Of a stretch of DNA of 42,843 bases, positions 10,103-25,516 are shown in pieces. Below the pieces are notes generated by a model, which made no database searches, was not told the origin of the DNA, and saw nothing but the letters and a program-made list of their open reading frames with translations. The translations under genes and the position numbers were made by a program. Source of the DNA: a virus; IMG/VR virus record IMGVR_UViG_3300048597_000073, positions 1 through 42,843 of that record, one strand, 5' to 3'. Every line of letters starts with the position of its first letter. The stretch's first letter is position 1.

Positions 10103-10130
10103 TTGCAGTAGTGGCGTGCGCGTCTACCGT
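10103..10130 (+). promoter_or_regulatory. Late promoter-like element A
   Basis: TTGCAG (10103-10108), 16-bp spacer beginning TAGTGGC, then TACCGT (10125-10130). The ATG of the first adhesin-cassette gene lies 7 bases on (10138). Similar elements occur at 16730, 19602 and 34962. In this copy the terminase stop codon TAG is four bases upstream. Confidence 0.6.
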
Positions 10131-15991: not shown

Positions 15992-16738
15992 GTGAACCTG
16001 AACACGCAGAAGTGGTTCGATCGTGACCTGCCGTTCGTCACGGCGGGCGCACCCTCTGGCGCGCTGCAGGGGACCGCGACGCTGACGTTCGGGCAGTCCG
16101 GGACGCTGACGGGGGCCGGCGCCCTGGCGGGGACCAACGGGCTGACGTTCGGCCAGAGCGGCAACGCGCGCGGAACGGGTGCGCTCGCGGGCACGAACGG
16201 CCTGACCTTCGGGCAGAGCGGCACCGTCGCCGGGCTCGGCGCGCTGACCGGCGCCAACGGGATCACGTTCGGTCAGGCGGGAACGATGCGCGCGGACGGC
16301 GCGCTGGGCGGGACTGCCGGCGTCACGTTCGGGCAGATCGGCACGCTGAACGCGCCACCGTCCGACATGAGCGGAACCGCGTCGTTCTCGTTCGGCCAGC
16401 TCGGCACGCTGACCGGCGTCGGCGCGCTGTCGGGGACGGCGTCGCTCGTCTTCGGCCAGTCCGGCGCGCTCGGCGGGACCGGTGCGCTGACCGGCACGGC
16501 GTCGGTCGCGTTCGGGCAGTCCGGCAACTCGCGCGGAAGCGGAGATCTCGCAGGCACGGCCAGCGTGACGCTCGACGCATCCGGAACGCTGCAGGCGGCC
16601 GGCGCGCTGTCTGGCGTGGCGTCGCTCACGTTCGGGCAAGCGGGCATCCTGACGCCTCCGGAGGGCGGCGCAACGGCGGTGCAGGCGGGCTCGCTGCTCG
16701 TCGATCCCGGCCGCAACCCGAGTACGCGGTTGCAGTAG
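15992..16738 (+). CDS. 20-residue-repeat protein (GTxxLTFGQSG repeats)
   Basis: 248 residues, GTG 15992 three bases after the previous stop. After about 25 residues the chain consists of nine units with the core ALxGTxxLTFGQSGTLxGxG, mostly exactly 20 residues (60 bp) long; one unit carries a short insertion (NAPPSDMS) and one has lost the FGQ core. Each unit has a short strand and glycine turns, suggesting a beta-solenoid or stacked fibre. The C-terminus is unrelated. It is probably an elongated virion or surface-binding fibre. The stop codon lies inside late element B. Confidence 0.7.
   Translation: MNLNTQKWFDRDLPFVTAGAPSGALQGTATLTFGQSGTLTGAGALAGTNGLTFGQSGNARGTGALAGTNGLTFGQSGTVAGLGALTGANGITFGQAGTMRADGALGGTAGVTFGQIGTLNAPPSDMSGTASFSFGQLGTLTGVGALSGTASLVFGQSGALGGTGALTGTASVAFGQSGNSRGSGDLAGTASVTLDASGTLQAAGALSGVASLTFGQAGILTPPEGGATAVQAGSLLVDPGRNPSTRLQ
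16047..16650 (+). repeat. 60-bp tandem coding repeats
   Basis: About nine diverged copies of a 60-bp unit, most easily seen as GACGTTCGGGCAG or close variants recurring every 60 bases. Copies are diverged at the DNA level, so recent slippage is not the only force acting. Confidence 0.8.
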
Positions 16739-19601: not shown

Positions 19602-19629
19602 TTGCACTAGCGTCCGTGCGGCGTATTTC
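19602..19629 (+). promoter_or_regulatory. Late promoter-like element C
   Basis: TTGCAC (19602-19607), 16-bp spacer beginning TAGCGTC, then TATTTC (19624-19629). It precedes the leader ORF at 19640 and the capsid gene at 19823. Of the four elements this has the most -10-like second box. Confidence 0.6.
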
Positions 19630-19639
19630 TAACGCCGCG

Positions 19640-19684
19640 ATGAGTGACTCCCCGTGGCGGTTCGCGGGGGTGTCGGGCGAATAA
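19640..19684 (+). CDS. 14-codon leader ORF ahead of the capsid gene
   Basis: ATG 19640, 11 bases after the TATTTC box of element C; product MSDSPWRFAGVSGE, stop TAA at 19682-19684. The start lies at the same place relative to the element as the real start codons at the other three copies. The last codons run through the left arm of a strong terminator hairpin (19663-19698) and the stop codon is in its loop, so translation would compete with hairpin formation. Expression is not proven. Confidence 0.4.
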   Translation: MSDSPWRFAGVSGE

Positions 19685-19702
19685 CCCGCACCCCCGCGTT
19701 TT
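19663..19702 (+). terminator. Strong intrinsic terminator or attenuator before the capsid gene
   Basis: A 10-bp perfect stem (CGCGGGGGTG with CACCCCCGCG) is extended by four more pairs (CGGG/CCCG, one bulged T), with a 7-base loop and TTTT at 19699-19702. Upstream CCCCG (19650-19654) can pair with part of the left arm instead, giving a possible alternative fold. It lies after element C and 120 bp before the capsid gene. Confidence 0.8.
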
Positions 19703-19778
19703 CCGGAGGGGCAGGACAACCGGCAACGGCCCCCACGATCTCGTCGGCAGGCAGTCGGCCCCGCCGGATGGCGGACAA

Positions 19779-19793
19779 GCCCTGCGAAAGCAG
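19779..19793 (+). promoter_or_regulatory. GNRA-type hairpin in the capsid leader
   Basis: CTGC-GAAA-GCAG forms a small stem closed by a GAAA tetraloop about 30 bases before the capsid start, in the untranslated stretch 19703-19822. It may protect or position the capsid mRNA. No other gene is visible in that stretch. Confidence 0.35.
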
Positions 19794-19822
19794 CGTTTGT
19801 TCAACCCATCGGAGCAAGGACC

Positions 19823-20725
19823 ATGTCCACCGTCATCGAAACCCACTACGTCCCGACGTTCAAGAACAACGTCGAGCTGCTCGCGCAGCAGACGCAGTCG
19901 ATCCTCGAGCCGTTCGTCGAGACGCAGCCCTGCGAGGGGCTCGCCGCGGCGGTCCGCGACCAGTACGGCAGCGTCACGGCGCGCCGCAAGGTCGAGCGCC
20001 ACGAAGACACCAAGTACAGCGACACGCCGCGGGCGCGCCGCTGGCTGTCGCCGATCGAGTTCTACACGTCGGAACTCTACGACGAGTCCGACCTGATGCG
20101 GATGCTGACCGATCCGCAGTCGCCGCTCGTCCGCGCGCACGTCGCCGCGATGAATCGCGCCAAGGACTCGGTGATCCTGCAGGCGTTCTTCGCCGCCGCA
20201 CCCATCGGCGAGCAGTTCACGGCCGGCGCGACCGTCGCCTACGACACGAACAACGACATCGCCACCGACGTCGACCTGCCCGGCACGCCGAGCGGCCTGA
20301 CGCCGTTCAAGCTCATCAAGGGCACGGGCCGCCTGATGCGCAACCAGGTGGACACGTCCGCCGAGAAGCCGACCTGCGTCATCAACACGAAGGCGTGGGA
20401 GGACATGTTCGGCCAGGCGCAGTACATCAGCAGCGACTTCAACAGCGGCAAGCCGCTGACGAGCGCGCCGCGCGCGATCGATTACGGCGGCTTCAACCTC
20501 GTGCAGATCGAGCACGCCGACTTCCCGGTTAACGGCACGACCGACTGGCAGCTGCCGGCGTTCGTGAAGTCCGGCGTCGTGTTGGGCAAGTGGATGGAGC
20601 GCAAGGTCGAGGTGCAGCGCCTGCCGAACAAGGTGTCTTCGTGGGAAGTGAAGGTGCGCGAGAGCTTCGCCGCCGTTCGCGTCGAAGAGGCCAAGGTCGC
20701 GCGCATCCGCATCAAGTTCAGCTGA
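19823..20725 (+). CDS. Major capsid protein
   Basis: 300 residues, ATG 19823 with GGAGCAAGGA upstream. It follows the scaffold gene and has the length and alternation of an HK97-fold coat protein: an N-terminal helix (NNVELLAQQTQSILEPFVET), SVTARRKVERHEDTKY, a helix with SDLMRMLTDPQSPLVRAHVA, and a C-terminal strand series (KVSSWEVKVRESFAAVRVEE). Phages of this type use about 415 copies on a T=7 shell. It forms one unit with the next gene, bounded by a terminator on each side. Confidence 0.88.
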   Translation: MSTVIETHYVPTFKNNVELLAQQTQSILEPFVETQPCEGLAAAVRDQYGSVTARRKVERHEDTKYSDTPRARRWLSPIEFYTSELYDESDLMRMLTDPQSPLVRAHVAAMNRAKDSVILQAFFAAAPIGEQFTAGATVAYDTNNDIATDVDLPGTPSGLTPFKLIKGTGRLMRNQVDTSAEKPTCVINTKAWEDMFGQAQYISSDFNSGKPLTSAPRAIDYGGFNLVQIEHADFPVNGTTDWQLPAFVKSGVVLGKWMERKVEVQRLPNKVSSWEVKVRESFAAVRVEEAKVARIRIKFS

Positions 20726-21184: not shown

Positions 21185-21218
21185 GGCGCGCTCGGGGGTG
21201 ACTCCGGGCGCGCCTTTT
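21185..21218 (+). terminator. Intrinsic terminator after the capsid unit
   Basis: The stem GGCGCGC (21185-21191) with GCGCGCC (21208-21214) is followed by TTTT (21215-21218). A short inner pairing (GGG/CTCC region) may extend it. It ends 15 bases before the next ATG. Confidence 0.8.
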
Positions 21219-21233
21219 CGTTGAGAGGGACCG

Positions 21234-22919
21234 ATGCCGACAGCCCTGAAGGTGAAGACACTGGTTCGCTACCCTGGAACCGGCGCTCCTTGGTCGAGCA
21301 AGCTTCCGGGGGCGTCCGTCATCAGTCTTGCGGCGCGGCGCTACGATGGCGCAAGCGGTGCGACCACCGTCAACGGCGGTATTCCGCTGCAACCGGGCCA
21401 ACTCACGGCCGCGCAGCTTGGCAACGTTTCCATCGTCGAGGGCAGTACGGAGCGGCCGATCCGCGTCACGGCGCTGCAGGGCACGCACCCGGACGGGTCG
21501 CTTCGGGCGATCCAGGTACAGACCGACCTGACGTTTGCGACGAGCAGCGAGGCAAAGACGCTGACGCTGCGGCTGACGGTGCCGCCGACCGCCGGCACGG
21601 CCACGGCCACCACGATCAACTACGCGTGGATGCGGCAGCCGCGGCTGCTGTACTGCACCGACTCGGCGCATATGTGCCGCTCGCGCGTGTTCCCGCTGCC
21701 GCTGATCCCGATCGACGACCCGGCGGTTCCGTCGAGTTGGTACACGTTCCTGACGACGGACATGGATGCGCTGTACGAAGCCACGTATACGCGGACGCTC
21801 GCGGGCAACAACGCAGGGGCGGAATACGATCACCCGTATGAAATGGCCTGTGCGTTCGTCTCACAGGTATCGGCGCGACCGACTGCGGCGGTGCAGTACC
21901 TTCGCAGGGCGCTGGCGCACTACCTGAACGATTCGGCCGGGGTCACGGCGGCCGATGGACTCAGTTCTCAGGTCGGAACAAACGTCTACCTGTCTTTCGA
22001 GCGATTCGTTCCGTACTGCATTCCGCAGAGCGGCTCCTGGACTGGCTTCGACGACAACCCGGAAGGGCTGACGCGCAGCGCGACGGATCGTTCTGGCGCG
22101 GGCGCCGAATGGGCCTGTCGCTTGCTGTCGAGCGTCGCGATCTACTACCTGACCGGCTGGCAGCAGGCGCAGCTGCATACGCGCTACGCGGGCGGGTGGG
22201 CGTGGCGCGAATTGTCGGCGTTCTCCGCAACGATGGCGGCGAGCAGCGGCACGGCGCGCGACATGGTGAGGCGTCGCGGGCTGGGCGCGCAGGTTCATCA
22301 CTATCTGCAGAACCCCGCCTCGAGCTACCTGTTCGCACCGAACCCGCCTGCCTGGGACGCGTCCAACTTCATGACGCCGGTCAATGCGTGGCGCAACGGC
22401 GCCGACGCGCTTGCCGCCGTGGCCCCGGCACCGCTGACTGGAGTGTTCGGTGCGGCGAACGCAACCAACAACCCGGTGCAGCCGGTGTTCCAGTTCGCGA
22501 CCGTGGCCCCGTACCTTCTCTATCAGGCCTACCACATGGGCGTGTCGTCGACCGTCGTGGGCGATCGCATCAAGAGCGTCGCCGACTTCGTGCAGGCAAT
22601 CTGCGGTGCGCCGGTCTACAAGGCGGTGAGCAACTGGGACGTCTACGTTTCGCCGTACGACGCGTTCGGCGACAGCGACCAGATCATCGATCTTCAGATG
22701 ATGCAGACGCTGAACATGGCTTACACGTTCGCCTATACGGGGAACACGAGCTATCGCGACTGGGTTGACCGCGTCGCGACCGCCAAGCATTCACTGGAGC
22801 CGGGCGGCGCAGCCTATCAGACGATGGGCGGCTTCAAGCTGTGGGGGGAGCAGTTCCTGAATGCTCACCACGCGCTCGCGTACCGCAGCGGCGTCGCACA
22901 TAGCGGGTGGTGGAACTGA
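21234..22919 (+). CDS. Putative polysaccharide-active enzyme (RIFT-barrel plus alpha/alpha-toroid-like)
   Basis: 561 residues, ATG 21234 with GAGAGGGA upstream. Residues 15-125 have the pattern of N-terminal RIFT-barrel domains of PcRGLX/YetA-like proteins: GGIPLQPGQLTAAQLGNVSI, then RPIRVTALQ and HPDGSLRAIQVQ. The remainder is largely helical with Trp/Tyr/His-rich loops (ERFVPYCIPQSGSW, YLTGWQQAQLHTRYAGGWAW), like alpha/alpha-toroid lyases or hydrolases. No catalytic residue can be fixed by eye. Placed between capsid and tail genes, it may be a tail-associated depolymerase acting on capsule or exopolysaccharide. Moderate confidence in fold, low in substrate. Confidence 0.55.
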   Translation: MPTALKVKTLVRYPGTGAPWSSKLPGASVISLAARRYDGASGATTVNGGIPLQPGQLTAAQLGNVSIVEGSTERPIRVTALQGTHPDGSLRAIQVQTDLTFATSSEAKTLTLRLTVPPTAGTATATTINYAWMRQPRLLYCTDSAHMCRSRVFPLPLIPIDDPAVPSSWYTFLTTDMDALYEATYTRTLAGNNAGAEYDHPYEMACAFVSQVSARPTAAVQYLRRALAHYLNDSAGVTAADGLSSQVGTNVYLSFERFVPYCIPQSGSWTGFDDNPEGLTRSATDRSGAGAEWACRLLSSVAIYYLTGWQQAQLHTRYAGGWAWRELSAFSATMAASSGTARDMVRRRGLGAQVHHYLQNPASSYLFAPNPPAWDASNFMTPVNAWRNGADALAAVAPAPLTGVFGAANATNNPVQPVFQFATVAPYLLYQAYHMGVSSTVVGDRIKSVADFVQAICGAPVYKAVSNWDVYVSPYDAFGDSDQIIDLQMMQTLNMAYTFAYTGNTSYRDWVDRVATAKHSLEPGGAAYQTMGGFKLWGEQFLNAHHALAYRSGVAHSGWWN

Positions 22920-25516
22920 TGCCGACGCCAATCACGCCTGTTGCGCTGACGGTAGGCTCGCTCGAGACGTGGGTGACGGTCGACGTTTCCGCTCACGTGC
23001 CGTCGGGTACGACCGGCGTGATGATCCGCGTCCGCAACGACACGGGCAACGGCGCGATCGGCTATCGCAAGACCGGATCGACCGACACGTTCACGACGAA
23101 CTCGCTCGCCGGACGAACCGGGTTCATCTGCGTCGGCGTCGATGGCAGTCGACGAGTCGATCTTTACAAGCAGTACACTAATTTCTCGTTCGATCTGATC
23201 GGGCACTTCGGTGCGGAGGCCGTGTTCTTCACGAACGCGGTCAGCAAGGGTCCGTACAACTCGTCGTCTACCTGGACCGACGTAGACATCTCGGGCGACA
23301 CGGGCGGGGACACGGCCGTCGCCGCCATCGTGGCCATCGATTACGGGCAGACGCGGGGCGCCCGAAAGAACGGCAGCACCGATCCGCCGCGCCTCACGGA
23401 CGAAAGCGCCGGGACGCTCATCGTCGGGTGCGATGGGTCCGAGGTCTTCGAGATCCAGACCGAGGGCAACGGCGTCAACCAGCGCGTGCTCGGCTATCTG
23501 AAGTCCGCCGTGACGATGCACACGGACGCCATCGACCGGTCACTTGGGTCGACCGGGGTATTTACCGACCTCGCTGCGCTGCCAGCTGGCGCGGTCATGG
23601 GGATCTACTCGGTATTCGGCGCTGGCAATGCTGCCCTGCGCAAGAACGGCGCGAGCGAGGACTACAGCGGGAACGGGCTCGGCGACTGTCACGCCATCGT
23701 GGAGTGCGACGGTTCGCGGCTTGTTGAGGGGCGGATCGCGTCGACTGGAACCGACTTCTACGAACTCGGGTACTTCACGACGGCGGCAGCGCTCCCCTCG
23801 CTGACGGATGTCGACAGCGACGAGATCCTGACCAGTGCGCAGTCCGGTGCGACGTTCACCGGCAGCAATCTCGGTGCGACCACGGGCGATAGGACCGTGG
23901 CGCTGGTGCAGGGCTCGACGGTCGTCACGCAGACGCAGACCGGCGGCAATTCGACCTCGGGAACCTTCAACGTCACGGGGTTCGGCGCGGGTGGGCTGCT
24001 GCGCTATGGGACGGCAACGACGCTGCGCGTGACCGTGGGCAGCGACGTTGCCAACTTCTCGCTGGCTTCCGTCAGTGGACAGACTGCGCCTATCACCCCG
24101 CCTGCCGGGCGCGCGTGGGTCACGTTCGGCTCGCTCGAGACGACGGCCGCATATCGACTGGAAGGCGATCCGGGCGACATCGCGCCGGGGCATCAGCTCG
24201 AGTACGACACGGCCGGCGGCACCCTGACCGTCAACAGCAATGGCACCGTCAGCGGCACGAGCGGAAGCACGACGAGTATCGTCGGCCGCATACAGGACGG
24301 GTCGGGATGGTCGGCCGACGTCACCGTGCCGATTACCGGCGGCGATGTCCCGGTCATTGGCACGCAGCCATCAGCGCAGACCGTTCTGCGCGGCGCGACC
24401 GCGACGTTCTCGGTTTCCGCGAGCGGATCTGCGCCGCTGAGCTACCAGTGGCGCAAGAACGGTGCCGCTATTGGCGGCGCGACGGCGGCGACGTATACGA
24501 CTCCGGCAACCACCGATTTCGACAACGGCGCGCTGTACTCGGTGGTCGTGACGAATTCGCTCGGCGTCGTGACATCGTCCGCTGCCCTGCTGACGGTCAA
24601 CGTCGCTCCTGCGATTACCACGCAGCCGGCCAATGTGTCGGTGGCGTCCGGGCAGGCGGCGACCTTCTCGGTCGTCGCAACGGGGCGGCCTTCCCCCGCG
24701 TTCCAGTGGCGTCGAGACGGCGTCGACATCGCCGGAGCGACCAACGCGACCTACACCACGCCGCTGCTGTCACTGAGCGATTCAGGCGCACAGTTCACGG
24801 TCGTGCTGTCGAGTTCGGTTGGTAACGTAACGTCGAGCGCGGCCGTGCTGACTGTAACGGCGGTGACCGCGCCGGTACAGCCGCCGGTTCCAGGCGCGAT
24901 CCTGCCGCTCGAGCGAGTGTCGAAGGTCGCGATCGCCAATCAGGCGCTCACGAAGCTCGGCGTGTCGCTGATCGAGTCGTTCACCGAGGACTCGAAGGCC
25001 GCGCGCACGATGGCGGCGATCTACGATCGCATCCGCGACGCGGAACTGTCGCGCCGCTGGTGGAACTTCGCGAAGGCGCGCAAGCGGATGCCGGAGGCGA
25101 TCAACGACGAGCCGACCGGGCCGTTCCGCTACAGCTACGCGCTGCCGGCGGACTGGTTGACGACGATCTACGTCGGCAACCTGCCGCTGTCGATGACGCT
25201 CACCGACCTGCAGACCTACGATCCGGGCGACTGGTCGCACGAGGGCGCGTACATCCTGACGAACACGGCGCCCCCGGCGGACCTGTTCTACGTTCGGCGC
25301 ATCACCGACCCGACCCGCTACCACGCGCTGTTCGTCGAGGCGCTCGCCTGCCGACTGGCGATGGAAGCCGCCGACGCGCTGACGAACTCTCTCACGCGCT
25401 GGGAGAAGTGCGCGGCCGAGTACAAGGACGCGATCAAGGAAGCGCGCCGGGCGAACGCGATCCAGAACCCGCCGCAGAGCCTGCAGGACGGTAGCTGGCT
25501 CGGCTCGAGGCACTGA
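22919..25516 (+). CDS. Tail tubular protein A with a giant N-terminal adhesin-like extension
   Basis: 865 residues; ATG 22919 overlaps the previous stop (TGATG). Residues 1-290 contain three tandem ~95-residue beta modules, each ending in a VGxDGSR-type strand and then IGHF, LGYL or LGYF. Residues 290-475 include an IPT/TIG-like region. Two Ig-like domains follow (about 478-565 and 566-650: IGTQPSAQTV...YQWRKNG and ITTQPANVSV...FQWRRDG). Residues 664-865 are a full-length T7 gp11-type tail adaptor (SKVAIANQALTKLG, RRWWNFAKARKRMPE, FRYSYALPADW). T7 gp11 is only about 196 residues. An in-frame GTG at 24917 could start a free adaptor of 199 residues. The adaptor joins portal and tail in 12 copies. 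Confidence 0.85.
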   Translation: MPTPITPVALTVGSLETWVTVDVSAHVPSGTTGVMIRVRNDTGNGAIGYRKTGSTDTFTTNSLAGRTGFICVGVDGSRRVDLYKQYTNFSFDLIGHFGAEAVFFTNAVSKGPYNSSSTWTDVDISGDTGGDTAVAAIVAIDYGQTRGARKNGSTDPPRLTDESAGTLIVGCDGSEVFEIQTEGNGVNQRVLGYLKSAVTMHTDAIDRSLGSTGVFTDLAALPAGAVMGIYSVFGAGNAALRKNGASEDYSGNGLGDCHAIVECDGSRLVEGRIASTGTDFYELGYFTTAAALPSLTDVDSDEILTSAQSGATFTGSNLGATTGDRTVALVQGSTVVTQTQTGGNSTSGTFNVTGFGAGGLLRYGTATTLRVTVGSDVANFSLASVSGQTAPITPPAGRAWVTFGSLETTAAYRLEGDPGDIAPGHQLEYDTAGGTLTVNSNGTVSGTSGSTTSIVGRIQDGSGWSADVTVPITGGDVPVIGTQPSAQTVLRGATATFSVSASGSAPLSYQWRKNGAAIGGATAATYTTPATTDFDNGALYSVVVTNSLGVVTSSAALLTVNVAPAITTQPANVSVASGQAATFSVVATGRPSPAFQWRRDGVDIAGATNATYTTPLLSLSDSGAQFTVVLSSSVGNVTSSAAVLTVTAVTAPVQPPVPGAILPLERVSKVAIANQALTKLGVSLIESFTEDSKAARTMAAIYDRIRDAELSRRWWNFAKARKRMPEAINDEPTGPFRYSYALPADWLTTIYVGNLPLSMTLTDLQTYDPGDWSHEGAYILTNTAPPADLFYVRRITDPTRYHALFVEALACRLAMEAADALTNSLTRWEKCAAEYKDAIKEARRANAIQNPPQSLQDGSWLGSRH

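Follow-up and report, generated by a model that had tools for sequence, protein, structure and literature searches.

The capsid locus

We analyzed a window of 42,843 nucleotides, a viral record of IMG/VR that has a terminal repeat of 127 bases and a G+C content of 70%. The leader and capsid features described below are all on the plus strand. The gene at 19823..20725 encodes an HTVC010P-type major capsid protein. Matches to PF19821 (E 8e-51) and phrog_3437 bore out the assignment made in an earlier sequence-only reading, and on these profile matches the capsid identity is firm. Its Shine-Dalgarno sequence, GGAG, was read at 19811..19814, 8 nt upstream of the ATG at 19823. Elsewhere in the window, the tail-related protein encoded at 22907-25516 has Ig-like domains (Pfam I-set and Ig_3); a terminator-like hairpin of 13 pairs followed by TTTT is located at 21185-21214, 3' of the ORF that comes after the capsid gene; and tandem repeats of about 60 bases occupy 16039-16645 within an ORF (15992-16738) that lies 5' of the portal gene.

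Upstream of the capsid gene is a promoter-like element, TTGCAC-16 nt-TATTTC (19602..19629, element C). The genome contains four TTGCANTAG sites, of which this is one. The pattern TTGCA[GC]TAG occurs at 10103, 16730, 19602, and 34962, always on the plus strand, against a chance expectation of 0.11 for the whole genome, and each site is followed by a -10-like hexamer and then, 6-10 nt further, by an ATG. At the three sites other than element C, the spacing between hexamer and ATG is 6-8 nt, and the ATGs are those of the portal gene (16766), ORF 10138, and ORF 34996; the ATG at 19640 is located 10 nt 3' of the hexamer of element C. Judged by this arrangement, the four sites are probable leaderless promoters, one of them serving the portal gene, and the capsid transcript is predicted to start at about 19635-19638. 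A promoter-like CTTG element is present at the equivalent place in the five close relatives compared below. A sigma-54 promoter was considered for element C and dropped, because the spacing was not maintained at the other copies; a sigma-70 scan found no site.

The short ORF and the 5' hairpin

The sequence-only reading had interpreted the region between element C and the capsid gene as a possible attenuator. Direct reading confirmed the coordinates of its layout: the element at 19602-19629, a 14-codon ORF, MSDSPWRFAGVSGE (19640..19684; ATG 19640-19642, TAA 19682-19684), a hairpin with TTTT (19663-19702), a GNRA hairpin (CTGC-GAAA-GCAG, 19782-19793), and the capsid gene. The first hairpin has a stem of 14 pairs with one bulged base (19663-19677 / 19685-19698), and its loop (19678-19684) holds the stop codon. 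Its stability of -31 kcal/mol (z -4.3) was matched by 0 of 200 shuffles. Folding places this hairpin (19663-19698) inside an outer helix formed by CCCC 19650-19653 and GGGG 19708-19711, with TTTT at 19699-19702; we refer to 19650..19711 as domain I. An upstream CCCCG had been proposed to pair with the left arm of the hairpin; the CCCC is present, but the best fold pairs it with the GGGG of the outer helix. Similarly, the hairpin described as a strong terminator does exceed chance, but its strength is doubtful: only four U follow, and then a CCGG that pairs upstream. The hairpin was not among the terminators listed in a scan of the window. As for the suggestion that it ends the portal-scaffold transcript only, the predicted start of the capsid transcript lies 5' of the hairpin, and a terminator at this place would affect the capsid transcript too.

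The conservation of leader peptide and hairpin was compared in five close relatives (L002, L003, L004, L006, and L040), which are independent sequences with 65-71% capsid identity. The hairpin persists. The start codon of the ORF is missing in L002, L003, L006, and L040; only L004 has a short ORF beginning with ATG (ATG CAT GAG ACC ..., with its end in the U-tract), and its peptide is unrelated. L002, L006, and L040 retain the hairpin but have a weak U-tract or none. Neither the conserved leader ORF nor the conserved hairpin plus U-tract by which an attenuator would be recognized was found in these relatives. In the window, the 14-codon ORF has no Shine-Dalgarno sequence and no run of regulatory codons, and to judge from its sequence and from the relatives it is probably not functional; however, its ATG is spaced much like those of the three leaderless-looking sites, so that weak translation is possible.

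Enclosed hairpins similar to the one in the window, made of other sequences, are found in L003, L004, and L006. The bases of the outer helix differ as well, being CCCC/GGGG in the window, CCUC/GAGG in L004, and CCCCUGAA/UUCGGGG in L003. A hairpin enclosed by an outer helix of differing bases, in the window and in several relatives, looks like a structural domain.

A conserved motif in capsid leaders

Leaders were gathered through relatives of the capsid protein in IMG/VR, phage records, and bacterial genomes (Burkholderia, Pandoraea, Cupriavidus, Trinickia, and Pseudomonas, where the loci are presumably prophages), which resulted in 112 non-redundant sequences; capsid-linked leaders in IMG/VR number roughly 600. 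In the alignment of relatives, the best-kept bases were near the capsid start, with conserved sequence and structure 3' of the hairpin at 19663-19698. The conserved element is a small hairpin with a 4x1 internal loop: a helix, RYAA opposite C or GUAG opposite U, a second helix, and a loop. This motif was present in 81 of the 112 leaders of HTVC010P-type capsid genes, compared to 29 of 3223 control segments (0.9%) from the same loci. One copy was found in 43 leaders, two in 37, and three in one. The downstream copy ends at a median of 43.5 nt 5' of the capsid start codon, a distance that is nearly fixed across the phage family.

The leader in the window contains two copies, one per strand orientation. 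Copy 1, GG-ACAA-CCG-GCAA-CGG-C-CC (19714..19732), has the bulge on the 5' strand and a GNRA loop; its outer helix is weak in the window, with just 2 bp. GNRA-capped equivalents are present in L002 (loop ACAC), L003 (loop GAAA), L004, and L006. Copy 2, GGC-C-CCGCC-GGAT-GGCGG-ACAA-GCC (19757..19781), has the bulge on the 3' strand and is matched by the covariance model described below; this hairpin covaries in 34 other leaders.

When 4x1 internal loops were enumerated without naming their letters, with dinucleotide shuffles as control, the commonest were ACAA:C (53 leaders), AUAA:C (24), GCAA:C (14), and GUAG:U (11); the shuffles gave counts of about zero. The fourth loop base and the base opposite to it change together (A-C 93, G-U 17, A-U 4, G-C 1, C-C 8), which suggests, as a reading of sequence variation, a wobble-shaped pair (A·C or G·U) beside a 3-nt bulge, RYA.

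The strict motif was missing from 31 of the 112 leaders, largely those of pelagiphages. Pelagiphage-type leaders (L049, L053-L056, L061, L062, L116, L120, L122, L124, L127, L128, L134, L137, and L138) have another conserved hairpin at the same place, consisting of AGAGA/UCUCU, an inner stem, and a loop containing AGAAC, with compensatory changes. Phages BPP-1 and BcepC6B have related capsids but gaps of only 13 and 10 nt, respectively, and thus no such leader; a capsid of the HTVC010P type therefore does not strictly need the leader RNA.

Compensatory changes

The motif helices were paired in 95.9% of the alignment cells, a value reached by 0 of 500 shuffles, and contained 29 double changes compared to 6.9 in shuffles. 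These sequences had been selected by pairing; the table of a helix switch compiled without a pairing requirement therefore matters more. In this table, GGC/GCC was found 39 times, GAC/GUC 14 times, GGC/GUC, which retains a G·U pair, once, and GAC/GCC never. Mapped on the capsid tree, the switch amounts to about 5-6 changes, with only 3 independent coupled changes on well-supported branches. RNAalifold predicted the same helices. The leaders thus exhibit conserved secondary structure with compensatory changes, as is characteristic of a structured leader RNA.

Specificity of the motif

A covariance model (R1) was built from 34 leaders, with the group of the window excluded. Its only match in the 42.8 kb of the window was 19755-19825 (E=1.3e-6). 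Over 59 loci, matches up to about E 0.3 sit at capsid starts. Four bacterial genomes that bear prophages, each 6-7 Mb in size, had the known capsid leader as their top match; a fifth bacterial genome (Pseudomonas) gave no match. The Burkholderia peredens genome behind L043 also contained a second, weaker match (G004:C33:170833-170911, E 0.0075), possibly another prophage.

A first, wide DNA pattern had returned mostly chance matches, with only the capsid group being real. A scan of IMG/VR for the motif, blind to the capsid gene, returned 80 loci, 41 of which had an HTVC010P-type capsid gene downstream. The distance between motif and capsid gene was mostly 53-86 nt in these 41 loci (one, at 737, is probably due to chance), and the remaining loci look like chance matches inside genes. 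The motif is thus placed consistently before one gene, as in cis-regulatory leader RNAs. Rfam 15, searched with the window and 19 diverse relatives, gave no match at gathering score, and a permissive Rfam search with five loci, at E values up to 5, produced weak, chance-level matches only, far below the gathering scores.

A competing fold near the Shine-Dalgarno sequence

The minimum-energy structure of the window leader contains a competing fold (19767..19810), in which GGACAAGC (19773-19780) pairs with GTTTGTTC (19795-19802) around the GNRA hairpin at 19782-19793, and GATGG (19767-19771) pairs with CCATC (19806-19810), adjoining the Shine-Dalgarno sequence. This fold and motif copy 2 share bases and exclude each other. 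According to the energy models, the motif was part of the minimum-energy fold in just 5 of 65 leaders, a competing fold being favored in the other 60, and the computed competing fold often buries the Shine-Dalgarno sequence. With shuffled upstream sequence as control, pairing of the Shine-Dalgarno sequence is slightly increased (unpaired 0.217 versus 0.287 +/- 0.023). When the motif was forced in 62 leaders, the Shine-Dalgarno sequence opened in 27 and closed in 8. In the window, forcing the motif closes it (unpaired 0.50 to 0.24), so control may run in either direction.

The motif strand is 80% complementary to the Shine-Dalgarno region. A covarying pairing between the two was striking by eye and in a duplex-energy permutation; however, column-wise covariation did not go beyond shuffles, and we retain complementarity only.

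Proposed function of the leader RNA

At the level of sequence comparison, these results establish that the leader RNA is conserved, structured, and linked to the capsid gene, and that it repeats an internal-loop motif. The leader before the capsid gene is less likely to be an attenuator with a leader peptide than an example of a folded RNA common to a large phage family. The regulatory role that the sequence-only reading gave to the stretch between late promoter and capsid gene is supported; the mechanism it specified, attenuation through translation of the leader, is poorly supported.

The explanation we prefer, with a probability of roughly 0.55, is that the capsid mRNA carries a structured RNA acting in cis, the leader 19640-19822, in which the motif is a protein site that shifts the folds and thereby controls capsid translation. 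The leader RNA probably sets the amount of capsid protein made, and the computed structures suggest that it perhaps does so by switching between the motif fold and the fold that buries the ribosome-binding site. The simplest binding partner would be a virion protein, for example the capsid protein or its assembly partner; its binding would shift the leader between the two folds and match capsid translation to need. The hairpin taken for a terminator in the sequence-only reading would form the structural domain at the 5' end of the leader. More tentatively, the leader may represent a new class of RNA switch: a two-site RNA operator in tailed DNA phages with HTVC010P capsids, with the RYA bulge and wobble in both orientations. 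A virion assembly protein would recognize this operator and regulate capsid translation by feedback, in phages whose bacterial hosts are very different.

Among the alternatives, an element of mRNA stability, processing, or enhanced translation survives best, although we consider it unlikely. The 5' hairpin would protect the capsid mRNA, and the conserved hairpins would keep access or mark a nuclease site, with no switch involved. The mRNAs of T7 gene 10 and ompA, with a 5' hairpin near their start, provide a precedent, and a strong 5' hairpin near the predicted start is indeed present in the relatives. However, the conserved identity of bulge and wobble in two copies and two orientations, and the competing fold adjoining the Shine-Dalgarno sequence, would be left unexplained.

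A cis-acting antitermination RNA of the put type, modifying RNA polymerase for the late genes, is quite improbable. It would agree with the position of the leader, which follows a promoter-like element and opens the operon of capsid and tail genes, and with the pair of hairpin modules that the leaders of many phages contain, but the strict restriction to capsid leaders argues against it, and the fixed distance to the capsid start codon and the overlap with structures burying the Shine-Dalgarno sequence suit translation better. It is very improbable that the leader is a riboswitch for a small molecule or that the protein bound comes from the host instead of the phage: two competing folds and a conserved internal loop speak for these readings, but no Rfam class matched, the strong matches in the searched bacterial genomes are prophage capsid leaders (with the one weak match at E 0.0075 in addition), and the hosts of this phage family are very different bacteria. 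The least probable explanation is attenuation, by which ribosomes on the 14-codon ORF would keep the hairpin from forming, so that RNA polymerase could continue into the capsid gene. The ORF, the hairpin, and a stop codon within its loop are all in place, and the ATG is about where a leaderless start is expected, but the start codon is gone in four of five close relatives while the hairpin and the downstream RNA are kept, and the objections to ORF and U-tract given above apply.

In dsDNA phages, the ratios of capsid, scaffold, and portal protein are usually ascribed to promoters and the strength of ribosome binding. A conserved RNA before the major capsid gene would provide a concrete point of post-transcriptional control, in a phage family that includes the abundant marine pelagiphages, and the motif is compact enough for direct tests of its binding partner.

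Comparison with known systems

A literature search covering open-access full text found no description of the capsid leader element, and one paper on a pelagiphage of this family reports no ribonucleotide switches (PMC10504331). The manA and wcaG candidate RNAs of cyanophages are structured leader RNAs partly carried by marine phages; capsid genes are not mentioned in that paper (PMC2864571). The capsid leader differs from these RNAs in preceding a different gene and in having no Rfam hit. With the attenuators of amino-acid operons, the window shares a short ORF, a hairpin, and a downstream structural gene; however, its ORF and U-tract are not conserved, and regulatory codons are lacking.

The put RNAs of phage HK022 are cis-acting RNA hairpins that follow a promoter. 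The capsid leader likewise has phage hairpins, probably cis-acting, behind a promoter-like element, but their distance to a single start codon is fixed; the likeness to put is one of description rather than of computed comparison. Autoregulatory leaders of ribosomal-protein mRNAs are similar in that a structured leader precedes the gene of an abundant assembly protein, with probable translational control, whereas the capsid leader shows no recognized rRNA mimicry and no Rfam match.

In the single-stranded RNA phages MS2, Qbeta, and PP7, the coat-protein operators are small hairpins with a conserved bulge, located at or near the ribosome-binding site, and act on the replicase gene. The capsid leader resembles them in having a small bulged hairpin near the ribosome-binding site, in the context of a phage structural gene. 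In contrast to these operators, it precedes the capsid gene of a dsDNA phage, has a 3-nt bulge with a wobble in two copies and two orientations, and would bind a protein by inference. A structured regulatory leader is of a known kind; the motif and its tie to the capsid gene of tailed phages appear to be new.
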